Both the position numbers and the translations under genes were made by a program. The notes beneath the pieces are model-generated. The model saw only the letters and a program-made list of their open reading frames with translations, was not told the origin of the DNA and made no database searches. A stretch of DNA of 64,000 nucleotides, from contig NZ_JAPKNI010000001.1 of NCBI RefSeq assembly GCF_026343955.1, forward strand, positions 62,001 through 126,000, in the 5' to 3' direction. The DNA is from Kaistia defluvii (GTDB taxonomy: Bacteria > Pseudomonadota > Alphaproteobacteria > Rhizobiales > Kaistiaceae). Below are positions 1,530 through 50,280 of this stretch, piece by piece; the stretch's first letter is position 1; the number at the start of each line of letters is the position of its first letter.

Positions 1530-2852
1530 ATGCAAGACCGCCTGGAAGTCTCAGGTTCCGGGAATCTGCCGCCCCCGAGCGATGCCGGCGGCGAAGATCT
1601 GACGATCGGCGGTATCGCGGCTTCCAGGCTGGCGATCGCCGGAGAAGCGCGGCTTCCCAAGGTCTCTTTCATCGTTCGAAACTGGAACTATGGCCGGTAT
1701 ATCGGGCGCACGATCGACTCGATCCTGAGGCAGGATTATCCGGACTTCGAGGTCGTGATCGTCGACAATGCCTCGACGGATGAAAGCCGGGACGTCATCG
1801 CGCGTCACGTCGGCGACGACCCGCACTTTCGCATCCGTCATGCCGAGGTCAACCTGGGTTCCTTGGGCGCCGGCTTGCTCGGACTGGAACAGGCATCAGG
1901 CGAATTCGTTGCGTTCATCGATTCGGACGATACGCTCCTGTCGAACTTTGCCTCGGTGCATATCCAGGTCCATCTGGCCAGTCGCCACAACATTGCGTTC
2001 ACCTCCAGTGCCGCCCTGGAGACGGGACCGGACGGCGGCCTGTTCAGTGGCTCGCGCAGCCGGGAGAGCGTCCACGAAATAGCGACACCGGGCGGATTGC
2101 GCTCCGCCGACGTGGTACCCCGGCTCGGAAGCATCGACGGCAAGCTCTATGACCTGCTCGGCAAGCACACGTTCCTGCTGCCGCCAACGCCCCTGACCTG
2201 GCCCTGGTCTCCCGGCACGTCGAACGTCTACCGTCGCCACATCCTCGATATTCTCCGGCCGCAATGCGCCCCGGACGACATGGCGAAACTCTCGGCGGAT
2301 GGTCACTTCAACCGCCTCGCACATTGCCTCGGGGGCTCGGCTCTGATCGAGCTTCCCCTCTCGACCTATCGAATCCATGGCGACAACTTCGCAGCCTCGG
2401 CGCCGAGTCTGGCCGCCATGGGGGGCGATGGCGGTCCGGCGACAAAGTTTCACAGGGTACGCGCCCGCGAGATGGCCAGAGTCCTGGTCGCCAACGCATC
2501 GGACTTCTCGAACCGGATCGGCGAGAAGCGGTACTGGAGTTCCCTGGCTTTCCTGTTCCAGCTCGGCGGCCTCACGACACCGGGCGATCTCGCGGAATGG
2601 AACCGGGACGGGTTCTTCGACGAACAGGTCCGGCAACTGGCGGTGGCGTTCGGTGAACGCAAGGCCATTCGCAAGCTGGCGGCGTTCATTCCACGACCGC
2701 TGCTGCGATGCGGGGTCGCGGCGCTCCATGCCGGCAAATGGCCTGTCCATGCGCATCTGGAACTGCATCTGAGCGCGACGCGGCGCCTGCACGCCCGGAT
2801 CAAGCGCGCCATCCGCAAGCGGCGCCGCCCCCTGTCGACCAGCCCATTCTGA
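1530..2852 (+). CDS. Glycosyltransferase family 2 protein
   Basis: This 440-residue protein has a GT-A fold start at about residues 40-130: SFIVRNWNYGRYI, SILRQDYPDFEVVIVDNASTDES, and then FIDSDD, the DxD motif that holds the nucleotide-sugar metal ion. It should transfer a sugar from an activated donor to an unidentified acceptor, probably in surface polysaccharide or glycan synthesis. The C-terminal half has a YRRHILDIL segment and a strongly basic tail (KRAIRKRRR), and no membrane span is obvious. The ATG at 1530 is chosen because the GT domain begins soon after it; an earlier in-frame ATG at 1392 would add a non-conserved extension. It is a tandem paralogue of the preceding gene. Confidence 0.82.
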   Translation: MQDRLEVSGSGNLPPPSDAGGEDLTIGGIAASRLAIAGEARLPKVSFIVRNWNYGRYIGRTIDSILRQDYPDFEVVIVDNASTDESRDVIARHVGDDPHFRIRHAEVNLGSLGAGLLGLEQASGEFVAFIDSDDTLLSNFASVHIQVHLASRHNIAFTSSAALETGPDGGLFSGSRSRESVHEIATPGGLRSADVVPRLGSIDGKLYDLLGKHTFLLPPTPLTWPWSPGTSNVYRRHILDILRPQCAPDDMAKLSADGHFNRLAHCLGGSALIELPLSTYRIHGDNFAASAPSLAAMGGDGGPATKFHRVRAREMARVLVANASDFSNRIGEKRYWSSLAFLFQLGGLTTPGDLAEWNRDGFFDEQVRQLAVAFGERKAIRKLAAFIPRPLLRCGVAALHAGKWPVHAHLELHLSATRRLHARIKRAIRKRRRPLSTSPF

Positions 2853-3045
2853 CGCGCTTCCAATCCGAAGCCATCCGATCCCGCCCTCCCCCCGCCGCGG
2901 CAACATTCTCCTGCCCGCCCGCCTTTGCGCGTTTTGAGTGCGATGCTATAGGGGAGCCCGCACCATCCTCGGCGCTGCCTTGCCGCCCGCGACCTCCTTC
3001 CGCCGGCAAGCCGAGCCGTACAACCCCGAAGCGAGGTTCTCATCC

Positions 3046-4257
3046 ATGGCGAAGATCAAGGTAGCCAATCCCGTCGTTGAGCTCGACGGCGACGAGATGA
3101 CCCGGATCATCTGGCAGAACATCAAGGACAAGCTGATCCACCCCTACCTCGATCTCGACCTCCAGTATTTCGACCTGGGCATCGAGCATCGCGACGCCAC
3201 CAACGACATGGTGACGATCGAGGCGGCCGAAGCGATCAAGAAGGTGGGCGTCGGCGTCAAGTGCGCCACCATCACGCCGGACGAAGCCCGCGTGAAGGAG
3301 TTCAACCTCAAGGAGATGTGGAAGTCGCCGAACGGCACGATCCGCAACATCCTCGGCGGGGTGATCTTCCGCGAGCCGATCATCTGCCAGAACGTGCCGC
3401 GCCTGGTTCCCGGCTGGACCCAGCCGATCATCGTCGGCCGTCATGCCTTTGGCGACCAGTACAAGGCCACCGATTTCCTCGTCCCCGGCAAGGGCCGGAT
3501 GACGATCAAGTTCGAGGGCGAAGACGGCACCGTCATCGAGAAGGAAGTCTTCAAGTTCCCGGGCGCCGGCGTCGCCATGGCGATGTACAACCTCGACGAA
3601 TCGATCCGCGACTTCGCGCGCGCTTCGCTGAACTACGGCCTGATGCGCAAGTATCCGGTCTATCTCTCGACCAAGAACACCATCCTCAAGGCCTATGACG
3701 GCCGCTTCAAGGATCTGTTCCAGGAAGTGTTCGACGCCGAATTCGCCGCCGCCTTCAAGGCCGCCGGCATCACCTACGAGCACCGCCTGATCGACGACAT
3801 GGTCGCTTCGGCCCTGAAGTGGTCCGGCGGTTATGTCTGGGCGTGCAAGAACTACGACGGCGACGTGCAGTCCGACACGGTCGCCCAGGGCTTCGGTTCG
3901 CTCGGCCTGATGACCTCCGTGCTGCTGACGCCCGACGGCAAGACCGTCGAAGCGGAAGCTGCCCACGGCACCGTGACGCGCCACTACCGCCAGCACCAGC
4001 AGGGCAAGGAGACCTCGACCAACTCGATCGCCTCGATCTTCGCCTGGACGCGTGGCCTCGCCCATCGCGCCAAGCTCGACGACAACGCCGAACTCGCAAA
4101 GTTCGCGCTGACGCTCGAGAAGGTCTGCGTCGATACGGTCGAGGCCGGCGACATGACAAAGGATCTGGCGCTGCTCGTCGGTCCGGACCAGAAGTGGCTG
4201 TCGACCACGGGCTTCCTCGACAAGGTCAGCGAGAACCTGACCAAGGCGATGGCATAA
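3046..4257 (+). CDS. icd: NADP-dependent isocitrate dehydrogenase
   Basis: The product converts isocitrate and NADP+ to 2-oxoglutarate, CO2 and NADPH in the cytosolic TCA cycle. At 403 residues it has the length of the eukaryotic-type dimeric enzyme usual in Rhizobiales. It starts [20 protein letters not shown] and carries the substrate-binding SPNGTIRN segment (about residues 95-102), the metal-ligand region around LIDDMVA, and GTVTRHYR near residue 312 at the NADP site. The start at 3046 matches the conserved N-terminus; an in-frame ATG at 2938 would add a non-conserved extension. The gene is monocistronic and followed by a strong terminator. Confidence 0.97.
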
Positions 4258-4281
4258 GCCAAACTCCCCTAGCGGAACACG

Positions 4282-4316
4282 AACGGCGCGGGCTCATCCC
4301 CGCGCCGTTTTTGTTT
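4282..4316 (+). terminator. Rho-independent terminator of icd
   Basis: A 9-bp GC stem, cggcgcggg (4284-4292) with cccgcgccg (4299-4307), has a 6-base loop and is followed by TTTTTG and TTT. It lies 25 bases after the icd stop codon. The same stem sequence is reused after the ABC transporter operon. Confidence 0.9.
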
Positions 4317-5048
4317 GGGCCTCGCCGCGTCGGCGATCGACGGAAGAGACCCCGCACAAACGGGCGACCATCGCGCCGAGTTGCCGAGCTCCTGACGCAC
4401 AGGGCAACATTACGATTGCGTCAGTTGAAAACATCTCGGTGTACTACCGCAAAATTATCGATAGTTTACAAGTATTCCTACCTTCGAATTGTCGACGATC
4501 ACGGCTTTGTTGCATCGCAACAAACACACAGACTCCCGTGTTATTTGAAATTCTCCCCGGTAGTTGGTTGACCCTGGTCTATAACTTTTCATATGATCAA
4601 TTACTTTGCGCGATAGGACGCGTTCACGGACAGAGGGAGAAGCTGTCTTTGACAATCTGGCCGAGTTCACACTGCGCATTGTGCGAGGAATGAGGCTGTC
4701 CCTGGAGCGGCGACGTGCGAAGGCCCGGTTTTTCCGTCAGCCCATCGACACAACGGTCGGAGCAACCAGACCGACGCCAGCGGCAGGGACCCTGCCCTGC
4801 GACAACGCGGGTCCTGCGCGGACGCCGGGCCGGCGTATGGGGCGCGGATGGCGATAGTCTCTCGCGACACTGCCCGTACAGGCGGAATGCACAGGACCGT
4901 CTCGCGTGACGGGCCGTCGATGCGTGCGGGGAAGGCATCGCGCCCCAGCCGCCCGGCATCAACGACCAGAACCAATCGCGCGATTTAAACAATCACCGCC
5001 AGGATTCAGCCGAAGGCGGCACTAACATAAAGTTCCGGGAGGACGTGC
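4317..5048. other. Long non-coding gap upstream of the ABC operon, AT-rich core
   Basis: About 730 bases separate the icd terminator from the ATPase gene. Roughly 4400-4620 is far richer in A+T than anything nearby (for example the stretch around aaaattatcgatagtttaca). Short open frames here, such as an 84-codon one starting at 4439, lack a ribosome site and look random. The stretch could hold a long 5' leader, a small RNA or regulator sites for the sugar transporter. A good ribosome site (gggagga) stands just before 5049. Confidence 0.5.
4568..4597 (+). promoter_or_regulatory. Candidate sigma-70 promoter in the AT-rich gap
   Basis: TTGACC at 4568-4573 and TATGAT at 4592-4597 are separated by 18 bases, a good match to the housekeeping consensus on the plus strand. 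A transcript would start near 4604, about 445 bases before the ABC ATPase gene. It would therefore give either a long leader or an independent small RNA. Confidence 0.45.
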
Positions 5049-6110
<1,062 letters not shown>

Positions 6111-6193
6111 GCCAATTCCCTGACGAAGCGCCGCTTCGGGACGGCGCCTGCCTGCCAGGCAAATCCCGCAAAAGCAGGAGGAGGAGGAACCCC

Positions 6194-7510
6194 ATGACTT
6201 TGAACAGACGCCATTTTCTGACCACGTCCGCAGGACTCGTCGCAGCCACCGGCTTGAGCGGCCTGGGTATCAACCCGGCATTCGCGCAGGCGGCCGCGCC
6301 CACCTTCAAGCCGGAGGAAGGCGCATCGCTGCGACTCTTGCGCTGGGTCCCGTTCGTCCCGGGGGAAGAAGCCGCCTGGCTCGCCAACACGAAGAAATTC
6401 ACCGACGCGACCGGCGTCCCGGTTCGCATCGACAAGGAAAGCTGGGAAGACGTCCGCCCGAAGGCTGCCGTCGCCGCCAATATCGGCTCGGGCCCCGACA
6501 TGGTGATGAGCTGGTTCGACGACCCGCAGCAATATCCCGACAAGTTGGTCGACTTGACGGAACTCGGCGAATATCTGGGCAGCGCCCATGGTGGCTGGTA
6601 TCCGGGCCTCGAGGGCTACGCCAAGCGCGACGGCAAGTTCATCGCCCTGCCCCTTTGCGCCATCGGCAACGCCGTCGTCTATCGCGACAGCCACATGAAG
6701 GCGGCCGGCTTCAGCGAATTCCCCAAGGACACGGCCGGCTTCCTCGAACTCTGCAAGGCCATGCAGGCGAAAGGCACCCCGGCAGGCTTCCCGCACGGCA
6801 AGGCGGTCGGCGACGGCAACAACTATGCCCACTGGCTGCTGTGGAGCCATGGCGGCAAGATGGTCGACGAGAGCGGCAATGTCGTCCTCAATAGCCCGGA
6901 GACGCTGGCTTCGGTCAAATATGCGCAGGAGCTCTACAAGACCTTCATTCCGGGAACCGAGAGCTGGCAGGACGTCAACAACAACCGCGCCTTCCTGGCC
7001 GGCCAGATATCGCTGACCGCCAATGGCGTCTCGATCTACTACGCCGCCATCAAGGATCCTTCGATGAAGGAAATCGCGGAGGACATGCGTTCGGTCAATC
7101 TGCCGATCGGCCCGGTGGGTGAGTCCGTCGAGCTGCACCAGGCCTCGACCCTCTCCGTGTTCAAGCACACGAAGTATCCGGAAGCCGCCAAGGCCTATCT
7201 GCAGTTCATGTATCAGGCCGACAACATGAATAACTGGATCGAAGGCGCCAGCGCCTATTGCTGCCAGCCGCTCAAGGCCTTCGCCGACAACCCCGTCTGG
7301 ACCAGCAATCCGATCCATGCCGCCTATGCCAAGGCATCGGGTTCCCTGCGTCCCAACGGCTATGCCGGCCCGCTCGGCACCGCCTCCGCCGCGACGATGG
7401 CGGATTATGTGCTGGTCGACATGTATGCGACCGCGGTCACCGGCCAGATGTCGCCGGAAGACGCGATCGCTCAGGCCGAGCGCCGGGCCCAGCGCTACTA
7501 CCGCGTCTAG
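6194..7510 (+). CDS. ABC transporter sugar-binding protein, Tat-exported
   Basis: This periplasmic extracellular solute-binding protein (family 1) of 438 residues should deliver a sugar or polyol to the two permeases that follow. It begins MTLNRRHFLTTSAG, with a twin-arginine motif, a hydrophobic stretch and a probable cleavage site after AFAQA near residue 33, so it is likely exported folded by Tat. The purine-rich ribosome site gcaggaggaggagg directly precedes ATG 6194; upstream in-frame codons lack such a site. The mature part has the usual lobes (GPDMVMSWFDDP, YAHWLLWSHGG). The ligand is unknown; the nearby L-xylulose-reductase-like gene hints at a polyol or pentose. Confidence 0.92.
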   Translation: MTLNRRHFLTTSAGLVAATGLSGLGINPAFAQAAAPTFKPEEGASLRLLRWVPFVPGEEAAWLANTKKFTDATGVPVRIDKESWEDVRPKAAVAANIGSGPDMVMSWFDDPQQYPDKLVDLTELGEYLGSAHGGWYPGLEGYAKRDGKFIALPLCAIGNAVVYRDSHMKAAGFSEFPKDTAGFLELCKAMQAKGTPAGFPHGKAVGDGNNYAHWLLWSHGGKMVDESGNVVLNSPETLASVKYAQELYKTFIPGTESWQDVNNNRAFLAGQISLTANGVSIYYAAIKDPSMKEIAEDMRSVNLPIGPVGESVELHQASTLSVFKHTKYPEAAKAYLQFMYQADNMNNWIEGASAYCCQPLKAFADNPVWTSNPIHAAYAKASGSLRPNGYAGPLGTASAATMADYVLVDMYATAVTGQMSPEDAIAQAERRAQRYYRV

Positions 7511-7581
7511 TCGGCGCCTTCCTTTCCCGCCGCGCAAGCGGCGGGAAACACCCTGATTCCTTGCTGGGCGCGGAGATGTCC

Positions 7582-8514
7582 ATGAGTGCCTACCCCACCC
7601 CAAAGCCGCCATCGCGCATAGCAGATATGTTCCAGAGCCGGAATGCGATGGGACTGATGTTCATGCTGCCGGCGGCGGTGTTCCTGATCTGCTTCCTGAC
7701 CTATCCGCTCGGCCTCGGCGTCTGGCTTGGTTTCACCGATGCGAAGATCGGCCGTGACGGCGTCTTCATCGGCCTCGAGAACTATCGCTATCTCTGGGAT
7801 GACCCGGTCTTCTGGACCTCCGTCTTCAACACGGTCGTCTACACCTTCGTCGCCTCGGTCCTCAAATTCGCGCTCGGCCTCTGGCTGGCGATGATCCTGA
7901 ACGAGCAACTGCCGTTCAAATCCTTCTTCCGCGCCATCGTCCTTCTGCCCTGGGTCGTGCCGACGGTTCTCTCCGCGCTGGCCTTCTGGTGGATCTTCGA
8001 CGCGCAGTTTTCCATCATCTCCTGGTCGCTGATGCAGATCGGCTGGATCGACGGCCCGATCAATTTCCTCGGGGACCCGACCAACGCCCGCATCTCCGTC
8101 ATCGCCGCCAATGTCTGGCGCGGCATTCCTTTCGTCGCCATCTCGCTGCTGGCCGGCTTGCAGACGATCTCCCCGTCGTTGCAGGAAGCGGCATCCCTGG
8201 ACGGCGCCACCAGCTGGCAGCGCTTCCGCCTCGTGACGCTACCCATGCTGAGCCCGATCATTGCCGTGGTGATGACGTTCTCGGTCCTGTTCACCTTCAC
8301 CGACTTCCAGCTGATCTATGTTCTGACCAAGGGCGGCCCGGTGAACGCGACCCACCTGATGGCGACGCTTTCGTTCCAGCGCGGCATCCCCGGAGGCCAG
8401 CTTGGCGAGGGTGCGGCGATCGCCGTCGCGATGATCCCCTTCCTGCTCGCAGCGATCCTGTTCAGCTTCTTCGGCCTGCAACGGCGGAAGTGGCAGCAGG
8501 GCGGACAGGACTAG
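7582..8514 (+). CDS. Sugar ABC transporter permease (MalF/UgpA type)
   Basis: This is an inner-membrane permease of about 310 residues with six predicted spans. The first is MLPAAVFLICFLTYPLG. The EAA loop that docks the ATPase is present as EAASLDGATSWQRFRLVTLPML (within about residues 205-230). ATG 7582 is preferred over ATG 7576 because GGAG at 7572-7575 lies six bases before it and abuts the other. It forms the transport channel with the permease encoded next. Confidence 0.92.
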   Translation: MSAYPTPKPPSRIADMFQSRNAMGLMFMLPAAVFLICFLTYPLGLGVWLGFTDAKIGRDGVFIGLENYRYLWDDPVFWTSVFNTVVYTFVASVLKFALGLWLAMILNEQLPFKSFFRAIVLLPWVVPTVLSALAFWWIFDAQFSIISWSLMQIGWIDGPINFLGDPTNARISVIAANVWRGIPFVAISLLAGLQTISPSLQEAASLDGATSWQRFRLVTLPMLSPIIAVVMTFSVLFTFTDFQLIYVLTKGGPVNATHLMATLSFQRGIPGGQLGEGAAIAVAMIPFLLAAILFSFFGLQRRKWQQGGQD

Positions 8515-25321: not shown

Positions 25322-27928
25322 CTAATGGCCGAGCGTTTCCTTGACGGCGGTCGCCAGCTGCTTGAGCGAGAACGGCTTCGGCAGGAAATTGAAGGTCTCG
25401 CCATCCGGCAGGTTCTTGGCGAAGGCGTCCTCGGCATAGCCGGAGACGAAGATGATCTTCAGCCCCGGACGCTCCTTGCGCAGCTCGCGCAGCAGCGACG
25501 GGCCGTCGAGTTCCGGCATGACGACGTCGGAGACAACGAGATCGATCGTGCCGCCGGTCTCGCGCATGATTTCCAGCGCCTCGATTCCGGAGGCGGCCTC
25601 GTGCACGGTGTAGCCGCGCGAGGCGAGCGCCCGGGCGGCGAAGGCCCGCACGGCCTCCTCGTCCTCGACCAGCAGGATGCTGGCGCTGCCGGTGAGATCG
25701 GCGATCTCGGGCGCCTTCTCGGCGATGATCTCGGGCTTGGACGAAACAAGCGGAACGTGGCGCGGCACGAAGATGCGAAAGGTCGTGCCGACATCCGTCT
25801 CGCTGTCGAAGAAGATATGCGCGCCGGTCTGCTTGACGATGCCGTAGACGGTCGAGAGGCCGAGGCCCGTGCCCTTGCCGACATCCTTGGTCGAGAAGAA
25901 CGGCTCGAAGATCTTCGACTGCACTTCGGGCGGAATGCCGGTGCCAGTATCCGCCACTTCGATCAGCACATAGTCGGCAGGCGGCAGCGGCTTGTAGCTG
26001 AACTCCGCCACCTCCTCCGGCGTGACGTTGCGCGTGCGGATGGTCAGCGTGCCGCCCTTCGGCATGGCGTCGCGGGCATTGACGGCGAGATTGATGACCA
26101 CCTGCTCGAACTGATTGAGGTCGGCCTTGATCGGCCAGACATCGCGGCCATGCACCAGTTGCAGCTTGACCTTCTCGCCGAGCAGCCGCTCCAGCAGGAT
26201 CGAGAGATCGGACAGCACGTCGCCCATCGCCAGCACCTGCGGGCGCAGGGTCTGGCGGCGCGAGAAGGCCAGCAACTGGCGGACGAGTCCGGCCGCGCGG
26301 TTGGCGTTCTGCTTGATGTTCATGATGTCCTGGAAGGACGGATCGCTCGGCCGATGGTTGGCGAGCAGCAGGTCGGAGAAGCCGATGATCGCCGTCAGCA
26401 CGTTGTTGAAATCGTGCGCGACGCCGCCGGCCAGCTGGCCGATCGCCTGCATCTTCTGGCTCTGCGCGAACTGCAGCTCCAGCGCCCGCTGCTCCGTCGT
26501 CTCGAGCGCATAGACGGTGGCGATCTCGCGCTCGTTCGCGTCCTCGTCGACGGCCGTCACGTAGAAGCGCACGCTGCGCTCGCCCTGGCCGAGAATGGTG
26601 GTGTCGACGGGCGGGATTTCGCTGCGGCCGCCGGCGGCGCTCTCCAGCGCGGCCTCCAGCGCCGGGCGCTCGCTCTCGGCGATCACGTCGATCAGGCGGG
26701 CGCGGCTGCCGCCATCCGACTTGATCGGCCCGAACAGGCGCGCGAAGGGCGCGTTGGTGCGGCCGATCCGGCCGGACTTGTCGATCGAGGCGATGGCGAA
26801 GGGCGTGTGATTGAAGAAGCGGGTGAAGCGCACTTCCGCCGCGCGCAACGCCTCGGATGTCTCCTCCCCGGGGCCGCGATTGAGCACGATGGTCCGGGTC
26901 GCGCCCGGCGCGCCGTCGCCGGCGAAGGGAACGCGATGCAGCAGCCGCACAGGCAGGCTCTGGCCGTTCTGCTTGACGAGATCGAGATCGATCGTCTGCG
27001 GCCGCATCTCGCCGGAATTCTCGCGGTCGACCGAGAGCAGCGCCGCGCCGTCGCCGCGCACGATATCGCCGAGCGTGAGGGCGCCGGCCTTGAAATAGGT
27101 CAGGTCGATGCCGAGCCAGTCGGCGAGCGTCGCGTTCAGATAGACGATGCGGCCATCCGGCTCGGCCGAGAAGAAGCCGGCCGGCGCATGGTCGAGATAG
27201 TCGATGGCGTGCTGCAGGTCCTGGAACACGGTTTCCTGCTGGGCGCGGTCATGCGTGACATCGGCGACCTGCCAGGCCGTCAGCAGGCGGCCGTCATCCT
27301 TGCCGGCCTTCACAGGGCGGACCCGGATGCGATACCAGCGCGGCGTGCCGTTGGCGGGGCCGGCCAGGGGGGTCGGCATGCGCACTTCCTCGACGGCGGC
27401 GCGACCTTCGCGGATCGACTGCGACAGGCGGTAGATCGCCTCGCTCGCGGCCTGGTCGCCGGAGAAGACGCGCTCCACGACGCGCACATCCTTGCCCTCG
27501 TCCGCGCCGACCAGGTCGGCATAGGCGGCGTTGGCGTAGAGGATGCGGCTGTCGCGATCCGTGATGATCAGGCCTTCGGCCATGCTGTCGATGAAGCCAC
27601 GGCCGAGATCATCGCGCGGCGAGCGCCCGGTGAAGCGCATCAGCCCGATCGCGGCGGCGAACAGCGTGAAGACGCCGACGACCGCAAGAAGCCCGAGCAG
27701 CGCGAAGATGAAGGGTTCGGCCGCCCGGGGGGGCAGCAGGGCAAAAGCGAGCGCCGCGCCGACGAGGCAGCCGGCGAGCACCAGCAGTCGCCCGATCCCG
27801 CCGGGGCGATCGGAGCGATCGACCAGCGCGCGGCGAGGCGTTTTCTGGTTGCTGTCGTCGGTCATGCCGCTACGCGGCTCGACTTGTGCGGCATGAACCC
27901 CTGCACCCCGGTCTGCCCATCTGTTCAT
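25322..27928 (-). CDS. cckA: Cell-cycle hybrid histidine kinase CckA
   Basis: CckA relays phosphate through ChpT to the cell-cycle regulator CtrA and to CpdR, and is a membrane-bound kinase/phosphatase. Two spans lie at about residues 45-65 and 70-95 ([38 protein letters not shown]). PAS domains follow ([47 protein letters not shown]). The phospho-accepting His is in GGVAHDFNN, the ATPase shows [10 protein letters not shown] and GTGIPPE, and the receiver has its Asp in [12 protein letters not shown]. At 868 residues the layout is complete. An alternative start at 27865 removes 21 residues. Confidence 0.93.
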
Positions 27929-35011: not shown

Positions 35012-35521
35012 CTAACGTCGCCAATGCGTCCGCAGCGGGCCGTTCTTGCCCTCGATCGGGTCTTCGCACGGCATCTCCAGCGCGCGGATCCGCGCCCGGA
35101 CCGCGACGCCGTCGACGACGTCGTCATCGCGAATCAGATCCCAGCGCTGGCCGACGGGATAGGCGCCGACGACGAGCAGGTCGGGGCTGGAGCGGAGGCG
35201 CTTGTGGCCGACACCGGCCGGGATGAGCACGGCGTCGCCCGCCACCAGTTCCATCGCCTTGCCGGTTTCGCCACCGAGCTGGACCGTCACCGTCCCGGAA
35301 GCGATGCCCAGCACCTCATGCGCGGTCGAGTGGTAGTGGTGGAACGGATACATGCCGTTGCGCCAGGTGCCGCCCCAGCCATGCGACACGAACAGCCGCT
35401 CGAACGCGGAGGCGCGGTCCGTGCCGTCTTCCGCCAGCGCCTGGCGATAGAGGATCAGCGGCAGGGACGGGTTGTTGGGAATGACGCCGGCATCGGCGAA
35501 TTCGTGCGTGCTGGATTTCAT
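35012..35521 (-). CDS. Cupin domain protein (YjlB-like)
   Basis: The 169-residue protein is a single-domain cupin. The metal-binding motif 1 is visible as YPFHHYHSTAHEVLGIASG (about residues 58-76) and motif 2 as GDAVLIPAGVGHKRL (about 95-109). Related YjlB-type proteins have no assigned reaction. It stands 90 bases upstream of the ferredoxin reductase gene's end on the same strand. Confidence 0.82.
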   Translation of the reverse strand: MKSSTHEFADAGVIPNNPSLPLILYRQALAEDGTDRASAFERLFVSHGWGGTWRNGMYPFHHYHSTAHEVLGIASGTVTVQLGGETGKAMELVAGDAVLIPAGVGHKRLRSSPDLLVVGAYPVGQRWDLIRDDDVVDGVAVRARIRALEMPCEDPIEGKNGPLRTHWRR

Positions 35522-35611
35522 CGTCGTCTCCGACTCTGGATCATCGGAAAACGGGCCGCGCCGCCCGGAGTTCCGGCCCGGCGCGCTCGCCGGGCCATCG
35601 GGCGCGACGGG

Positions 35612-36745
<1,134 letters not shown>

Positions 36746-36767
36746 TCACTCGCGGCCGCGTCGGGGC

Positions 36768-37088
36768 TTAGCCCTGGCGCTCGGGGATCCGGACGATCAG
36801 GCCATCCAGTTCGGGCTTGACGCGGATCTGGCAGGAAAGGCGGGAGTTCGGCTGCACGTCCTGCGCGAAGTCCAGCATGTCCTCTTCCATCGCTTCCGGC
36901 TCGCCGGTGATCGCGACCCAGGCTTCATCGACATAGACATGGCAGGTCGCGCAGGCGCAGGCCCCGCCACACTCCGCCTCGATACCGGGCACGGCGTTGC
37001 GCACGGCATTTTCCATGACGGTCGAACCATCACGGGCTTCAATCTCGTAGGGCGTACCGTCAAAGGCGATATAGGTGATCTTGGCCAT
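36768..37088 (-). CDS. 2Fe-2S ferredoxin (adrenodoxin type)
   Basis: The 106-residue electron carrier shows three cluster ligands in the [14 protein letters not shown] region with C-x5-C-x2-C spacing (about residues 39-50), and the fourth in RLSCQIRV. Adrenodoxin-like ferredoxins of this kind serve P450s or iron-sulfur assembly. It is transcribed towards the ferredoxin reductase gene, and the two probably form an operon. Confidence 0.93.
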
Positions 37089-37833
37089 GGCATCCGCGAC
37101 GCTGCAAAAGACCGCCCCCTATAGGCGATATGCGGCTTGCGTGCCAAGGCCTGTGCGCCACCGCGGCCGCGACCGATTGGTCCACCAGCCGGACGCGGGA
37201 AAATCGGATGGGATGGTTAACGATCGATCGCCGGTCCTGCGGGCGCCAATTCTGCCCCGGATACGGGGCCTGCCGTAGACTTTCCGCTTCGTCATCCAGG
37301 AACCGGATCGTCTATCGCGCAATATTGGGCCGCGCTGCCAGCAATGGGATGGCGGGATCTCTCGCGAACAGCCATAAATGATGCGACCCATGCCAATTCG
37401 ACAGGATCGCTGCTGGGAACAACATGTCTCGTGAGCCATCGCCCGAGAAAAACGGCGTCCGCAGGCGATACGGGGATGCAAACGGTCGTTCGCGCGGCTG
37501 CGAAGTCTTCCGCATCGGACATGTCTGTTCATGCCGGTCTCGCTGGGAGCCGGCACACACGCCGTCAATACCTTGTTAACAAATTGCTACCGAAAGCCGT
37601 ACTTTCTTGTACCCCTGCCCCTAATGTGCCAAAAGGTGGGGCTACGGGCAAGGGTGTGAAGGCCGATCTGGATCGCGAGTATGGCGTCTCCGGGGGACAG
37701 GCTGATCTACGGGTTGTGGCGATCTCGGCGCACGTATCAAGCGCTAGCTGTGTCCTGGAAGCATCCTCGTGCTTTTGACGGGTTCCCGTCGAAGCGGCCG
37801 ACAGAGTATCGAGTACGGACGCGAGGCTAAAAA
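37089..37833. other. Long gap upstream of the GPR-like gene
   Basis: The 745-base stretch lies between the divergent ferredoxin and GPR-like genes. Short frames (for example 76 codons from 37522 on the minus strand and 144 codons from 37344 on the plus strand) lack ribosome sites and family resemblance. Single GTTAAC sites occur at about 37214 and 37576. It probably contains the promoter and a leader of the giant gene; nothing else is seen. Confidence 0.4.
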
Positions 37834-40800
37834 ATGGCGAATACCCCGAAGTCCAAGGACCCGGTGGATGCAGCGCTCACCGCCGTGGAGGAGGCGCTCC
37901 GGATCGATTTCGACGCTCCGACGACGGCGAGCCCCCGGGCACCCGCTGGCGGCGGTCCGCGCGATCGACGGCTTGAGCCCCCCAGACTTCAGGAGGCGCC
38001 CCGCAAGGGAGATGCGCCCCGCCGCGCGGATGCACCGCGCAAGGTAGAAGCCCCGGCAGCGGCTGCGAACCGCGCCCTGCCCTCGCCGACCCGCTCCGAA
38101 GAACCCGGCGCCTCGCCGCGCGGCCGCCAGTCCGGCCGCAACAGCCGCATGCCCGCCAATGACGACCGTCGCGTCGGCGGCGCCTCGCTGCCCGCGCGCC
38201 GTCCGTCGCGCCTGATCTACCCGCTTGCCTCGCTGTTCTCGATCGCCTGGGTCGGCGCCATTGCGGCCTATGTGAGCTCCGCCAATATCAGCCTGTTCTC
38301 CGGCGACAGCGCCGTGGGCTCGGCCCAGTTCACCAACATCGCGCTCGCCCTGGTGCTACCGGTCGGCATCGTGTGGGGCATCGCCATGATGGTGGCCCGC
38401 GCGCAGGAAATGCGCATCGCCGCGCGCTCGATCTCCGATGTCGCCGCCCGCCTGTCCGAGCCCGAGGACGCCGCTTCCGAAGCCGTCGTCACCGTCAGCC
38501 AGGCCATTCGCCGCGAAGTTGCCGCCATGGGCGACGGCATCGAGCGGGCGCTGGCCCGCGCCAGCGAGCTCGAACTGCTGGTGCACAACGAGGTCGCGGC
38601 GCTCGAACGCTCCTATTCCGACAATGAAGTCCGCATGCGCGGCCTGATCGACGACCTCGCCAACCAGCGCGAGGCGATCGTCATCAATTCCGAGCGCGTC
38701 CGCACCTCGATCGTGTCGGCGCAGGAATCGCTGTCGAAGGATCTGGGCGAGGCGAGCGAGCAGATCGCCGCCAACATCATCGGCTCCGGCGACCGCATCA
38801 CCCAGGCCCTGGCCGGACGCGGCGAAAACATCACCACGGCGCTCGGCACGGCCGGCGACGAGATGATCAGCAAGCTGTCGCTGCGCGGCGAGGATCTGGT
38901 CAACCGCCTGACCAGCGCCGCAACCGACGTCACGGAATCCTTCTCGCGCACCAGCGTCGAAGTGACGGATGTGCTGCTGTCGCGCAGCGCCGACATCAAC
39001 GAGACCCTCGAGACGACCGGCCGCGCCATGGCCGAAACCGTCGCCGAGCGCGGACGCGAGGTCAACGAGACCCTGGCCCGCGTCACCGAGGAACTGACGG
39101 AAGGCCTGGATCGGCGTACCGCCGACATGACCCGCTCGATCTCGGTCACCGGCAACCAGGTCGCCGAGACGATTTCGCTGCATACCCGCGAAGTGAACGC
39201 CGCGCTGAAGTCCAATGCCGACAGCCTGATTGTCGACCTGGCCCTGCGCGGCCAGGAGATCAACGACAAGCTCGACGAGACCGGCAACCGCATCGCCGAC
39301 ACCATTTCCGACCGCGGCGGCGACCTCGCCGACCGTCTGGCGCTCACCGGCGACCGGATCCAGGACGCCATCGCCATTGATGGCGGCGCGCTCGCCGAGC
39401 GGCTGACCTCGGCCGGCGACATCATGGCGACGCTGATCGAAGCCCGTACCGCGGCGCTGCGCGACACCATCGACGGCGCCTCCAACGCGGTCAACGAGAC
39501 CTTCGACGCCCGCTCGGCCGAACTGACCGAACGTCTTGCGACGGTCGGCGGCGAAGTCGCCAAGGCGATCGCCGTGCGTGGCCTCAAGGTCAACGAGACG
39601 ATCATCGCCTCCGGCAACGAGATTTCCGAGACCATCGCCTCGCGCGCCGGCCTGCTGCATGAGCGGATCGTCGAATCTGGCAAGCAGATCTCCGACACCA
39701 TGGAGAGCCGCGGCACCGCCGTTTACGACCTGATCATCGAATCGAGCCAGCAGTTGGCCGATGCGATCGAGACGCGCGGCTCCGCCGTGCATCAGCGCAT
39801 CCTGCATTCCGGCAACGAGATCGCCTCGACGATCGAGAGCCGCGGCACGGACATCCACGAGCGCATCCTCGCGTCCGGCAGCCGTTTTGCCGACGAGATC
39901 GCCAAACGCGCCGACAGCGCGCACCAGCAGATTCTGGCCTCCGGTACCGAACTGGCGGATGCGATCGAGAGCCGCGCCGGCGCCGTGCACCAGCGCATCC
40001 TCGCTTCCGGCACCGAACTCGCCGACACGATCGAGAGCCGCGCCGAAGCCGCGCACCAGCGCATCCTCGCTTCGGGCACCGAGCTGGCCGACACGATCGA
40101 GAACCGCGCCGAGACCGCGCACCAGCGCATTCTCACTTCGGGCACCGAACTGGCCGATACGATCGAGAGCCGCGCCGAGGCCGCGCATCAGCGCATCATC
40201 GCTTCCGGCACCAGTCTGGCTGGCGAGATCGAGACCCGCGCCGACGCGGTGCATGAGCGTATCCTGACCTCGGGCAGCAACCTGGTCGGCGAGATCGAGA
40301 CGCGCGCCCAGGCGGCGCATGAGCGCATCCTGTCTTCCAGCGTCCATCTGGCCGGCGACATCGAGAGCCGTGCCGAGGCCGTGCACAAGCGGATCGTGGC
40401 TTCCGGCACCGAGCTCGCAGGCGAGATCGAGAACCGTGCCCAGACCGTGCACGAGCGCATCCTGTCGACCGGCACCGAACTGGCGCAGGATATCACCGAC
40501 CGTGCCGATGCCGTGCACCAGAGCATCATCGCCTCCGGTACCGACATCTCCGGCGAGATCGAGCGTCGCGGCCTCGATGCGCAGCAGCGCATCGTCAGCT
40601 CCGGTTCCGAACTGGCCGATGAGCTGGCCAACCGCGCCACCACGATCCACGAGCGCATTCTTTCCTCGGGCAGCGCGATCGCGGCCGAGATCGAGAGCCG
40701 CGGCACCGATGTGCATCAGCGCATCGTCAGCTCCGGTTCCGAGCTCGCCAACGAGATCACCAGCCGCGCCGAAGCCGTGCACCAGCGCATCATCGTCTCC

Positions 40801-43800
40801 GGCAGCGAGATCGCCGACGAGATCGAGACCCGTGCCTCGACCGTGCATCAGCGCGTGATCGAGGCCGGATCCGGCCTGATCGAGGAGATCGAGACCCGCA
40901 CCGGCGCGGTGCATGACCGCATCGTCTCGGCCGGCTCGGCCCTGGTCGGCGACATCGCCGGCCAGGCCAGCCTCGCGCAGGAGCAGATGCTGGAAGCGAG
41001 CGCCGGCCTTGCCGACCAGATCGCCAACCAGGCGCTCTCCGCGCATCGCCAGTTCCTCTCGTCCGGCAACACACTGATCGGGGAGCTGACCAGCCAGGCA
41101 CGCGCCGCCCATGAGGAGATCGTCACCTCGGGTTCGGGCCTGATCGACCAGATCGCGAGCCATGCGCGCCTCGCCAACGATCAGATCGTTGCCTCCGGTT
41201 CGTCGCTCTCGGAAGAGATCGCAAACCAGGCCCGCGTCGCGCATGACCGCATCCTGACCTCCGGCTCCGAGCTCGCCAACGAGATCGAAGACCGCGCCAA
41301 TGCCGTGCACCAGCGCATCGTCACCTCCGGCGCCAATCTGGCCAACGAGATCGAGGGCCGCGCCACGGCCGTGCACGAGCGCATCGTCGCCTCGGGCACC
41401 GACCTCGCCGGCGAGATCGAGAACCGCGCGACCTCCGTCCATGACCGGATCGTCGATACGTCCAGCCGCTTCGGCGACCTCATCAACGATCGCGGGCTCG
41501 CCATCGCGACCGGTCTCGACGAGCGCTTCGCGGCGCTGCGCGACATCATCGAGGTCCGGGGCCCCGAGCTGGTCACCCGCTTCGCCGACCGCGCCAACCT
41601 GATGGACACGACGCTGGCGGAGCGCCTCGAAGGCTTCGGCGACGCGATCGAATCCAAGATCGGCGCCGTCTCCGAGACGCTCGACAGCAATACCCGCCGC
41701 ATTGACGAGGCCCTCGACGCCCGCTCGGCCCAGATCAACCAGACCCTGATCGAGCGCACGCGCCACATCGCCGAGGCCTTCTCCAATGGCCAGGCCGAAA
41801 TCGGCGCGATCATCGACGACCGCCTTTCGGACGTGACCGGCCGTCTCTCCGATCGCACCCAGGCGCTTTCGGACATGCTGTCCGAGCGCTGGCAGTCGAT
41901 CAACGAGACGCTGGGCGAAAAGGCCGTCGAGGCAGCCAACAGCTTCGATGCCCGCGCCGCCCAGATGGACCAGATTCTCTCGACGCGCCTCAGCGACATC
42001 AGCTCGACGCTCGGCCGTGAGTCGGTCCGCGCCGCCGAACAGATCGTCGGCTCGCTCTCGGACGCGACCGAGCAGCTGGTCGCCGCCTCGAATACGACCA
42101 GCGGCGCGCTGCGTGCCTCGGCGAGCGATGCCTCGCAGAGCCTGACCCAGTCGGCGGCCGACGCCACTCAGGTCTTCTCGCAATCGGCGGCCGAGGCCAG
42201 CCAGGCGCTGACCCAGTCGCTGGACGAAGCCTCCCGCAACCTCGCCCGTTCGGCTCTCAGCGTCTCCGAGACGGTCACGCTTTCGGCCAATCAGGCCTCC
42301 GAGGCGCTGTCGCAGGTGGCAAGCTCGACGGTCGAGCTTCTGTCGACCTCGAGCGCCGACGCGGCCGGTCACCTGTCGCGGGTGTCCGCCGAAGCGGCCG
42401 AGCAGATTTCGCGGGTTTCCCTCGAAGTCGAGCAGAGCCTCGGCGGGCGCGCGATGAACACGGCCAGCGCGCTGGAAGAACGGACCCGCGCCTTCAACGC
42501 GGTTCTCGAAACCCGCAGCGCGGAACTGGCCCAGTTGCTCGACGGCGAAGGCAACCGCCTCGTCGCGGCGATCGACCAGCGCGGCAACGACCTGACCAGC
42601 AGCGTCGCCACCGCCGGCGACACCATCGTCGACCTGTTGTCGTCGAAGGGCTCCGAGATTGTCTCGATGGTGCTGTCGCGCACCGACGAGGCGGCCCGCG
42701 CCCTGATCGACAGCGGCGAGACCGTGTCGCGGAGCTTCGGCTCCACCAACGAGCGGCTCCGCACCGATGTGGCCGGCATCGTCGACCGGCTGGCCCAGTC
42801 GAACGAGATGCTCAACGCGCTGCTGACCCGCACGACCGAGAACCTGAACCAGATCGAGACGGGTCTGGCGACGCGGACCGGCGAGTTCGCCCAGGCGATC
42901 GAGCAGGCGATCGGCGGCACGCAGAATTCCTCCACCCTGCTCGCTTCGCAGGTCGAGATGCTGCGCGACGTGTCGAAGGACGTGCTGGAAAATGTCGGCG
43001 CCATCGCCGGCCGCTTCGAGGACCAGGGCCGCTCGCTCAGCTTCGCCGCCAGCACGCTCACCTCGGCCAACAGCGAAATCGAAGGTTCGATCGAGCAGCG
43101 CCGCATCGCCCTCGACCAGCTTGCCCAGAGCCTCGCCGCCCGCTCGTCCGAGCTGGATGGCATGATGCGCACCTTCACGGAAACCGTCAGCACCTCGCTG
43201 AAGGATGCCGAGGAGCGCGCCGCCGAGGTCGCCCGGATGCTCGCCCGTTCGAGCGAGACCGCCGCCAAGGGCGTTCTCGAAAACCTCGAAGGCATGCAGG
43301 CCACCGCCAGCAGCCAGAGCCAGAAGGCCGCCGAGGCGGTCCGCGAGGCGAACCGCGCCCTGATGGACGACATGGCCGCGGTGGTCGCCCAGGCGACCAA
43401 GCAGTTCTCGGCCGCGACCGACGAAATGCGCTCGGCCGCCAAGGAGATGGCGCAGGATCTCGAAACCACCCGCACCGAACTGAAGCGCGGCGTGCTCGAA
43501 CTCCCGGCCGAAACGCGCGAAAGCGCCGACGCCATGCGCCGGGTCGTCACCGACCAGCTGAAGGCCCTTTCCGAGCTCTCCGACATCGTCGGCAAGCATG
43601 GCAAGTCGCTCGACGTCTCGGTGCCCGGCACGCCGGCACCGGCGCCGCGCGGTCGCATTGCCGAGACGGCCCCGTCCTTCGCCCGGCCGCAGCCGGCCGC
43701 CGCCCAGGCTGTCCGCCAGGCGGCACCCGAGCCGGTTCGCGCCGCCACGGTTGCCCCGGCGACGTCCGCCCCGGCTGCCCAGCGCCCTGCCCCGGTTCGC

Positions 43801-44352
43801 CCGGCTCCGGTCGAGCCTGCCCGTCCGGCGGTTTCGGTCCGCCCGGCTCCGGCCCCGGCCCGCGCCGAGGCAAAGCCCGCTCCGGCGACGGAACAGGCCG
43901 AGCCGCGCGGCTGGGTCTCCGACCTGCTGCGCCGCGCCTCGCGCGACGAGGATCACAGCGCGGCTCCCGTCGAGCGTCGCGAGGCGGAAGCTCCGGCTGC
44001 CGCCGCCGGCAACGGCGCGTCGCTCGGCAATCTCTCGACCGACATTGCCCGCGCGATCGATCCGCGCGCGGCTGCCGAGCTCTGGGAACGTCACCATCGC
44101 GGCGAGAAGAACGTCTTCACCCGCCGCCTCTACACGCTGGCGGGCCAGCAGACCTTCGACGAGATCCGCCGCAAGTATCAGAGCGAGGCGGACTTCAAGG
44201 CAGCAGTCGATCGCTATGTCGGCGATTTCGAGCGCCTGCTGAAGGAAGTAGCCCGCAACGGCCAGGATACGGCGGGCAACAACGCCTACCTCGTGTCCGA
44301 TACCGGCAAGGTCTACACGATGCTCGCCCATGCGAGCGGCCGTTTCGACTGA
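37834..44352 (+). CDS. Giant coiled-coil membrane protein, Growth Pole Ring (GPR/RgsE) homologue
   Basis: The 2172-residue product matches the description of GPR of Agrobacterium (about 2100 residues, RgsE in Sinorhizobium), which forms a ring at the growing pole and is needed for polar growth. A Pro/Arg-rich cytoplasmic head (1-125) is followed by two spans (LIYPLASLFSIAWVGAIAAYV; IALALVLPVGIVWGIAMMVA). Then comes over 1200 residues of helix built on an 11/22-residue repeat. A Pro/Ala-rich linker (about 1930-2030) leads to a conserved-looking C-terminal domain (RAIDPRAAAELWERHHRGEKNVFTRRLY). Assignment to GPR is from size, topology and repeats; it could be another large polarity scaffold. 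A strong terminator follows. Confidence 0.8.
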   Translation: MANTPKSKDPVDAALTAVEEALRIDFDAPTTASPRAPAGGGPRDRRLEPPRLQEAPRKGDAPRRADAPRKVEAPAAAANRALPSPTRSEEPGASPRGRQSGRNSRMPANDDRRVGGASLPARRPSRLIYPLASLFSIAWVGAIAAYVSSANISLFSGDSAVGSAQFTNIALALVLPVGIVWGIAMMVARAQEMRIAARSISDVAARLSEPEDAASEAVVTVSQAIRREVAAMGDGIERALARASELELLVHNEVAALERSYSDNEVRMRGLIDDLANQREAIVINSERVRTSIVSAQESLSKDLGEASEQIAANIIGSGDRITQALAGRGENITTALGTAGDEMISKLSLRGEDLVNRLTSAATDVTESFSRTSVEVTDVLLSRSADINETLETTGRAMAETVAERGREVNETLARVTEELTEGLDRRTADMTRSISVTGNQVAETISLHTREVNAALKSNADSLIVDLALRGQEINDKLDETGNRIADTISDRGGDLADRLALTGDRIQDAIAIDGGALAERLTSAGDIMATLIEARTAALRDTIDGASNAVNETFDARSAELTERLATVGGEVAKAIAVRGLKVNETIIASGNEISETIASRAGLLHERIVESGKQISDTMESRGTAVYDLIIESSQQLADAIETRGSAVHQRILHSGNEIASTIESRGTDIHERILASGSRFADEIAKRADSAHQQILASGTELADAIESRAGAVHQRILASGTELADTIESRAEAAHQRILASGTELADTIENRAETAHQRILTSGTELADTIESRAEAAHQRIIASGTSLAGEIETRADAVHERILTSGSNLVGEIETRAQAAHERILSSSVHLAGDIESRAEAVHKRIVASGTELAGEIENRAQTVHERILSTGTELAQDITDRADAVHQSIIASGTDISGEIERRGLDAQQRIVSSGSELADELANRATTIHERILSSGSAIAAEIESRGTDVHQRIVSSGSELANEITSRAEAVHQRIIVSGSEIADEIETRASTVHQRVIEAGSGLIEEIETRTGAVHDRIVSAGSALVGDIAGQASLAQEQMLEASAGLADQIANQALSAHRQFLSSGNTLIGELTSQARAAHEEIVTSGSGLIDQIASHARLANDQIVASGSSLSEEIANQARVAHDRILTSGSELANEIEDRANAVHQRIVTSGANLANEIEGRATAVHERIVASGTDLAGEIENRATSVHDRIVDTSSRFGDLINDRGLAIATGLDERFAALRDIIEVRGPELVTRFADRANLMDTTLAERLEGFGDAIESKIGAVSETLDSNTRRIDEALDARSAQINQTLIERTRHIAEAFSNGQAEIGAIIDDRLSDVTGRLSDRTQALSDMLSERWQSINETLGEKAVEAANSFDARAAQMDQILSTRLSDISSTLGRESVRAAEQIVGSLSDATEQLVAASNTTSGALRASASDASQSLTQSAADATQVFSQSAAEASQALTQSLDEASRNLARSALSVSETVTLSANQASEALSQVASSTVELLSTSSADAAGHLSRVSAEAAEQISRVSLEVEQSLGGRAMNTASALEERTRAFNAVLETRSAELAQLLDGEGNRLVAAIDQRGNDLTSSVATAGDTIVDLLSSKGSEIVSMVLSRTDEAARALIDSGETVSRSFGSTNERLRTDVAGIVDRLAQSNEMLNALLTRTTENLNQIETGLATRTGEFAQAIEQAIGGTQNSSTLLASQVEMLRDVSKDVLENVGAIAGRFEDQGRSLSFAASTLTSANSEIEGSIEQRRIALDQLAQSLAARSSELDGMMRTFTETVSTSLKDAEERAAEVARMLARSSETAAKGVLENLEGMQATASSQSQKAAEAVREANRALMDDMAAVVAQATKQFSAATDEMRSAAKEMAQDLETTRTELKRGVLELPAETRESADAMRRVVTDQLKALSELSDIVGKHGKSLDVSVPGTPAPAPRGRIAETAPSFARPQPAAAQAVRQAAPEPVRAATVAPATSAPAAQRPAPVRPAPVEPARPAVSVRPAPAPARAEAKPAPATEQAEPRGWVSDLLRRASRDEDHSAAPVERREAEAPAAAAGNGASLGNLSTDIARAIDPRAAAELWERHHRGEKNVFTRRLYTLAGQQTFDEIRRKYQSEADFKAAVDRYVGDFERLLKEVARNGQDTAGNNAYLVSDTGKVYTMLAHASGRFD
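38752..42018 (+). repeat. Tandem 22-residue (66-bp) repeats in the GPR-like gene
   Basis: Read in frame, residues 307-372 form three 22-residue units. Residues 373-383 are a half unit of 11, and residues 384-1395 form 46 consecutive 22-residue units without a register shift. The 28 central units (39643-41490) share the pattern R-A-x-x-[VA]-H-x-R-I-[LIV]-x-S-G-x-x-L-x-x-E-I-E-x. Four copies around 39907-40170 are nearly identical in DNA. Pure 11-residue units continue downstream at about 42160-42450. Confidence 0.92.
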
Positions 44353-44378
44353 TCCATACGGCACCGACACCTCAAGAG

Positions 44379-50067: not shown

Positions 50068-50143
50068 TGGTGGGTGCACTAGGGATCGAACCTAGGACAA
50101 GCTGATTAAGAGTCAGCTGCTCTACCAACTGAGCTATGCACCC
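50068..50143 (-). tRNA. tRNA-Lys(CTT)
   Basis: On the minus strand the gene runs from GGGTGCATAGCTCAGTTGG to TGCACCCA with the CCA end encoded (76 bases). The acceptor arms pair, and the T-loop GGTTCGATCC and D-loop are normal. The anticodon loop CTCTTAA gives anticodon CTT for lysine AAG codons. Confidence 0.96.
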
Positions 50144-50204: not shown

Positions 50205-50280
50205 TGGTGGGTGCACTAGGGATCGAACCTAGGACAAGCTGATTAAGAGTCAGCTGCTCTACCAACTGAGCTATGCACCC
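50205..50280 (-). tRNA. tRNA-Lys(CTT), second copy
   Basis: This gene appears identical to the copy 61 bases away, again 76 bases with an encoded CCA end and anticodon CTT. On the minus strand it is the upstream copy, so both are probably made from one transcript. Confidence 0.96.

Follow-up and report, generated by a model that had tools for sequence, protein, structure and literature searches.

Growth in Rhizobiales takes place from one pole, mostly without MreB. The closest described systems to the gene analyzed here are two giant proteins, GPR of Agrobacterium tumefaciens (Atu1348) and RgsE of Sinorhizobium meliloti (SMc00190, PMC7327166). GPR, as described in PMC8262873, has 2115 amino acids (aa), two membrane spans, apolipoprotein-type repeats, a Pro-rich region and an essential C-terminal end, and the length of RgsE in print is 2089 aa (PMC7327166). 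The apolipoprotein repeats of GPR have thus already been published, as have homology models that proposed three-helix bundles (PMC8262873), and a similarity between GPR and TipN of Caulobacter (882 aa, PMC13170164) is also in print (PMC8546619, PMC13170164). In a stretch of 64,000 nucleotides of Kaistia defluvii (contig NZ_JAPKNI010000001.1, positions 62,001 to 126,000; hereafter the window) the gene at 37834-44352 encodes a further member of this known GPR/RgsE family. The best explanation for the protein as a whole, to which we assign a probability of roughly 0.7, is a membrane-anchored, in-register coiled-coil rod that holds a conserved C-terminal domain (CTD) away from the membrane of the growth pole. 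A preliminary description made from the letters alone had proposed a polar scaffold with a hendecad (11-residue) architecture, either as a rod of defined length or as a belt lying on the membrane.

Layout of the GPR/RgsE orthologue

The window protein was compared with a 2089-aa S. meliloti protein (locus L180, positions 2064-8333, strain Ak57, annotated 'kinesin'), which from species and length is in all likelihood RgsE. Homology outside the helix, on which the preliminary description had made its assignment depend, was found in two regions: the CTDs share 68% identity in an ungapped alignment of 109 residues, and residues 120-318, comprising the spans and the juxtamembrane region, are 51% identical over 190 aligned residues with 4 gaps. 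A long alignment of window residues 4-1905 gave 25% identity. Both proteins also have a long helical rod with matches to the Pfam apolipoprotein family PF01442, a Pro-rich region and a divergent 2Fe-2S gene upstream. Judged by sequence comparison, orthology of the window gene to gpr/rgsE is taken as established. The PF01442 repeats of the window protein reached an E-value of 8.2e-63 (212 bits versus a curated cut-off of 90) in 11 matched stretches, and all 8 matches of this genome to the family fall in the frame 37834-44352. The 3.7-Mb S. meliloti record that carries rgsE (CP090106.1) is labelled plasmid pSymB and looks like a misfiled chromosome.

The open reading frame encodes 2172 aa, in agreement with the preliminary description, and the two N-terminal spans reported there were seen by hydropathy at about residues 127-149 and 165-191, both helical in the structure model; this topology would place the bulk of the protein in the cytoplasm. 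From residue 211 to 1890 there is one proline only, at position 1244. The protein can be divided into the following parts.

37834..44352, plus strand: gpr/rgsE orthologue by sequence, 2172 aa (open reading frame, Pfam, comparison with the S. meliloti protein)
37834..38211, plus strand: residues 1-126, Arg/Pro/Ala-rich, probably disordered, before the first span (composition, proline list)
38212..38280, plus strand: residues 127-149, first transmembrane span (hydropathy; helix in model)
38326..38406, plus strand: residues 165-191, second transmembrane span, one predicted helix with the rod (hydropathy, model)
38407..38670, plus strand: residues 192-279, conserved juxtamembrane stalk, period near 3.6 (periodicity, model)
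38671..42744, plus strand: residues 280-1637, slip-free hendecad rod, 1358 aa (periodicity, Viterbi register model)
38983..42018, plus strand: residues 384-1395, the 46 units of 22 residues of the preliminary description (sequence display)
39755..40854, plus strand: 66-bp tandem repeats at the DNA level (DNA repeat search)
41241..41454, plus strand: second block of 66-bp tandem repeats at the DNA level (DNA repeat search)
42745..43503, plus strand: residues 1638-1890, post-rod segment, without proline and with no single register (periodicity, proline list, register model)
43504..44019, plus strand: residues 1891-2062, Pro/Ala-rich linker (composition)
44020..44349, plus strand: residues 2063-2172, CTD, found class-wide (homology searches, structure model)

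AlphaFold2 predicted residues 160-407, including the second span, as one unbroken helix (289-residue model; mean predicted local distance difference test, pLDDT, 88.5; predicted template modelling score, pTM, 0.32), with no hairpin in the first 128 residues of the rod. The CTD was predicted as six helices (pLDDT 78.2, pTM 0.71). Foldseek searches of the PDB gave no match below an E-value of 0.001 for either the CTD model (best 3.1) or the N-terminal model (best 2.0), and a search of the PDB sequences with the CTD profile gave two unconvincing matches (best E 0.024).

Register and composition of the rod

Periodicity analysis confirmed the hendecad architecture. The hydrophobic period peaks at 3.666. 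The power at 11/3 was 139 for residues 231-1700 and 127 for residues 231-1740, where 500 shuffles reached 7.6 at most, and of 120 hendecad blocks 114 deviate by no more than 60 degrees from a common phase. As first described, there are 46 units of 22 residues at 384-1395, together with the half unit at 373-383 and the earlier units. The 11-residue register runs on after 1396 to residue 1637, although the 22-residue alternation looks weaker there. The slip-free stretch is thereby longer than originally seen and extends over residues 280-1637, 1358 residues or 123 hendecads. Slips were located with a Viterbi register model (eleven register states, one penalty for slips of any size), used instead of an earlier run tracker that in its own control was blind to slips of 1, 3, 4, 7 and 8 residues. 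Since deletions of 1-10 residues planted in the window protein and in three relatives were all found by the Viterbi model (240 of 240), the absence of slips from the window rod is informative. The RgsE rod, by comparison, has 8 counted slips, with two wider gaps left uncounted; divided by 11 they leave a remainder of 7 in seven cases and 3 in one, all of which fit whole heptads, and its global period is 3.655.

The core of the hendecad is formed by positions a, d, e and h, with large Ile, Leu or Val at d and h, Gly or Ala at a, and Ala or His at e. The flanking position k is Arg or Lys in 43% of cases, and acidic residues occupy the far side of the helix. Over its 1358 aa the rod carries a net charge of -92, with 0.9% Lys, 1.1% aromatics and a narrow hydrophobic seam.

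This composition bears on the view, taken for GPR in PMC8262873, that the repeats form an apolipoprotein-like belt of amphipathic helices which double back and either rest on lipid at the growth pole or sequester it. The strong PF01442 score speaks for it, as do weak phmmer matches to ApoA-IV chains (E 0.0005-0.008), and the repeats of 11 and 22 residues are those of the apolipoprotein A1/A4/E family. Periodicity of 11 residues is also known in lipid-binding helices. The window rod is unlike the apolipoproteins, however, in that it lacks proline punctuation, has few lysines and aromatics and is strongly acidic, and its net charge and narrow seam disfavour the membrane-lying belt of the preliminary description. 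A HeliQuest-type lipid-binding factor averaged -0.08 over the rod, where 21 of 1341 windows exceeded 0.68 and no window exceeded 1.34, as compared to a mean of 0.29 and 17% above 0.68 in a stretch of ApoA-IV. That stretch has 7 prolines in 216 aa, the rod 1 in 1358, so that by computation the rod does not have the lipid-binding, proline-punctuated helices of an apolipoprotein. Moreover, the modelled N-terminal part is a single helix and not a bundle, and the weak PDB matches are near noise, with an unrelated flavoprotein scoring alike. We therefore consider the belt unlikely, and an in-register rod offers an alternative to the apolipoprotein view of GPR.

Length evolution and a model for the rod

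The suggestion that the rod has a defined length was not borne out, as the lengths of its orthologues differ widely, mostly by whole units. For this comparison we required gapless anchors on both sides of the rod, which 30 of 96 relatives passed, the other 66 being dropped with gapped or weak anchors. Rod length relative to the window ranged from -687 to +275 residues, and the difference modulo 11 was 0 in 17 relatives, 7 in 8 and 6 in 2, with 3, 10 and 1 occurring once each. A tree of these relatives and the window protein, built from the parts outside the hendecad rod (31 proteins; 16 of 28 inner branches well supported, 11 long end branches unsure), requires by parsimony 24 or more changes in length, while length modulo 11 need change only 10 times, when about 22 such changes would be expected under free length change. 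At a chance of 1 in 11, at least 14 of 24 changes that keep the class have a probability of about 2e-9, a value that is approximate as it comes from parsimony counts.

The slips within the rods gave a similar picture. In 49 proteins of the order 86 slips were counted, with remainders modulo 11 of 7 (54 slips), 3 (12), 10 (11), 6 (3), 9 (2), 4 (3) and 8 (1), and none of 1, 2 or 5. Evidently 82 of the 86 fit one, two, three, four or six heptads (remainders 7, 3, 10, 6 and 9), the 54 being single heptads. When the class-level proteins were included (97 in all) the remainders were 7 in 61 cases, 3 in 35, 10 in 17, 6 in 7 and 9 in 2, the other slips being three of 2 (five heptads), three of 4 and one of 8. 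Three proteins from the window's own genus (L034, L035 and L036) have a length remainder of 7 together with one slip of 7. The rods of the orthologues thus look as if built from 11s and 7s, and the window rod looks to have lost its 7s. Because their lengths differ mostly in whole steps of 11 or 7 residues, the results suggest that register constrains the rod more than exact length does.

The same length steps could arise by neutral repeat expansion, that is, by slippage between the 66-bp repeats with selection on neither register nor length. The window gene and that of its nearest relative are 94% identical. Their rods differ by an indel of exactly 132 bp (2 x 22 aa) that lies in the DNA repeats, and the other two indels of this pair, 6 bp each, are in the Pro-rich linker; this indel and the 66-bp arrays favour such a process. 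However, steps of 11 are also seen in several members of other families (L050, L051, L052 and L059), lengths differ by odd multiples of 11 besides 22, and heptads are not a DNA repeat unit. In addition, slip remainders of 7 outnumber those of 4 by 54 to 3, though the calculated shift of the seam is equal for the two. An entirely neutral origin is thus improbable in our view.

In the membrane-anchored rod that we prefer, the two spans would anchor the protein in the inner membrane and the second would continue unbroken into a very long helix. The hendecad part would most likely self-associate, parallel and in register, into a near-straight and slightly right-handed coiled coil, while a flexible Pro/Ala linker would present the CTD, which in turn may recruit partners at the growth pole. 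Units would be gained and lost by repeat recombination, with changes that break the register being removed. Localisation to the growth pole and a requirement for rod shape are known for the relatives in print (PMC8262873, PMC7327166), from which a polar location is to be expected. At 0.148-0.15 nm per residue the hendecad rod would measure about 200 nm, and residues 160-1890, if all helical, about 255-260 nm. With strict register and free length, the question of how GPR organises the pole becomes one of register versus length.

Several published phenotypes of GPR can be read in the light of such a rod. GPR lacking about 20 aa from residue 413 onwards interfered most strongly of all forms beside the wild type and worked partly alone (PMC8262873), and as a reading of published data this would fit parallel in-register oligomers: a mixed oligomer would lose register along the remaining rod, and a pure mutant oligomer could re-pair. 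Function suffers when the last 10 residues are missing or GFP is placed at the C-terminus (PMC8262873), which matches the conserved end of the CTD. The same paper gives 600 nm for 1700 helical residues, with folding inferred from 50-nm foci. A length of 600 nm for that number of residues suits an extended chain, an alpha-helix being about 255 nm at 0.15 nm per residue. The deletion proteins in that paper carried an N-terminal GFP (PMC8262873), a tag that marks the anchor end only.

A number of points weigh against this model. A C-terminal deletion of 221 aa was worse than one of 332 aa (PMC8262873), which a simple rod with an effector at its end leaves unexplained. The N-terminal structure model has the low pTM given above, being a long lone helix, and covers only the first 128 residues of the rod. 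Length change by units is in part expected from the mutation process alone, as the 132-bp indel in the DNA repeats illustrates. As to the arithmetic, the anchor filter left 30 of 96 relatives, 5 of these have remainders that need at least two heptads, and enough heptads can reach any remainder. Slips were counted between segments at most 40 residues apart, and since the rods used in the control resemble the window's, slips in distant rods are less sure.

A relative of the ZorA tail, the cytoplasmic rod of MotA/TolQ-type stators that would conduct force or a signal, is very improbable: PADLOC ZorA models match the rod at E-values down to 3.5e-26 (for example over model positions 235-533 of 692, which presumably form the tail that follows the channel domain), the solved five-chain MotA/TolQ/ExbB-type entry 8vvn matches at E 0.014, and RgsE interacted with TolQ in two-hybrid tests (PMC7327166), but the matches are confined to repetitive helix, the protein has two spans only, NCBIfam ZorA2 scored 13.9 bits versus a cut-off of 700, the N-terminal model has no PDB fold match with E below 0.001, and a MotA/TolQ-type channel domain was found neither by Pfam nor by PADLOC, whose matches pair the rod with later parts of the ZorA models. 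Phage tail tape-measure proteins, like ZorA tails, are long helical rods with repeat-based matches, and their likeness to the window protein is likewise confined to the rod.

The wider family and the gene neighbourhood

In the first search, which included the window's own genome, the CTD was found in all 41 genomes, and among the Alphaproteobacteria sampled it was found in 141 of 385. Of 299 genomes drawn across the phylum, 72 matched its profile, all 72 of the same class, in a draw whose share of other classes is not shown. At the order level 36 of 40 relatives were fetched (the other four have open frames of 178-193 aa, and L066 is cut at a contig end), and at the class level 40 of the 141 matches plus 20 further loci, picked for score and spread. 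Two spans were found in 34 of the 36 order-level proteins; of the remaining two, one has a single span and the other is truncated by the end of its contig. Among the 40 class-level proteins 28 have two spans, 11 have one span, often long, and one, likewise truncated, has none. Among 37 class-level proteins outside the order the rod period was 3.566-3.576 in 18 and 3.616-3.626 in 4; of the other 15, 13 lie between 3.54 and 3.64 and 2 gave no period. Many of the out-of-order members among the matches listed have a prominent lag of 25 residues and a period of 3.57, and 25-mers were displayed for two of these proteins.

One of the families outside the order is Caulobacteraceae, as identified by an identical named match to a Phenylobacterium metagenome-assembled genome. 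Its protein was matched in 71 of 80 genomes, several of the matches being fragments, and the four copies that were retrieved (821-1005 aa) each combine two N-terminal spans with a rod and a divergent CTD that matches the profile weakly (E 1.3e-10 to 3.9e-6). From its family, length and topology this protein is probably TipN-like; it shares the plan, with a short rod, a weak 25-residue repeat signal and a weakly similar CTD. Three proteins of one family (L112, L113 and L114; 321-350 aa) have two spans and the CTD, with the rod nearly absent. L105, outside the order, has a very weak CTD match (E 6e-4), and its distant orthology is supported by flanking ferredoxin and oxidoreductase genes like those in the window, together with an Hpt gene.

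The CTD profile thereby groups proteins of several alphaproteobacterial lineages as a candidate polar scaffold family. Tentatively, and at slightly less than even odds, GPR/RgsE, the Caulobacteraceae TipN-like protein and the short, nearly rodless proteins may be one family of membrane hairpin, rod and CTD. Its rods would consist only of 11s and 7s; register would be kept by selection while the number of units drifts, and the supercoil would depend on the proportion of 11s to 7s. The units of 25 residues (7+7+11, period 3.571) of many lineages would then give a slight left-handed twist, and the giant rods of the window's clade, with their pure hendecads (3.667), a right-handed one. If true, the rod would serve as a spacer whose twist can be tuned and which sets the CTD off from the membrane of the pole by a distance counted in units. 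No description of a strict register, of rod lengths evolving mostly by units of 11 and 7 residues, or of a class-wide CTD with differing repeat mixes was found in the GPR/RgsE, TipN and hendecad literature that was searched.

Upstream of the gene the window contains the following features.

35612..36643, minus strand: pyridine nucleotide-disulphide oxidoreductase-type gene, syntenic neighbour (neighbourhood search)
36768..37088, minus strand: 2Fe-2S ferredoxin gene, divergent syntenic neighbour (neighbourhood search)
37089..37833, no strand: intergenic stretch; a small Hpt-like gene is located here in many relatives but was not detected in the window (Hpt search)

The oxidoreductase we take to be ferredoxin reductase-like. 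A ferredoxin match was found in 40 of 140 loci, many of which have little upstream DNA, and the gene is annotated in S. meliloti. The small Hpt-like gene lies near gpr/rgsE in 50 of 114 sequences, some again with little upstream DNA, and is divergent upstream in 45; examples are L180 1078-1446 and L182 2550-2843. The named orders with the gene number at least two, Hyphomicrobiales (S. meliloti) and Sphingomonadales. At the site of the phosphorylatable His, 43 of the 50 proteins have His, 5 have a different residue and 2 are gapped; the Sphingomonas copy and those closest to it carry a replacement. RgsE has the Hpt gene as a neighbour whereas the window does not; no such gene was found near gpr/rgsE in the window, its nearest relatives L032-L036, L046, L052 or the Caulobacteraceae loci, and in the window's own genome Hpt matches occur only in larger frames elsewhere.

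Two apparent open reading frames on the plus strand, 35024-36679 and 36663-37124, were rejected as antisense to the oxidoreductase and ferredoxin genes. A 2004-aa frame antisense to the rod gene (38356-44370, minus strand) was also rejected as a gene signal, as in 200 synonymous shuffles the longest stop-free run in that frame averaged 1610 codons and 12.5% reached at least 2000. This GC-rich gene readily yields long antisense frames of this kind. Elsewhere in the window, on the minus strand, there are a hybrid histidine kinase with PAS and receiver domains (25322-27928) and two tandem tRNA-Lys(CTT) genes (50068-50143 and 50205-50280).

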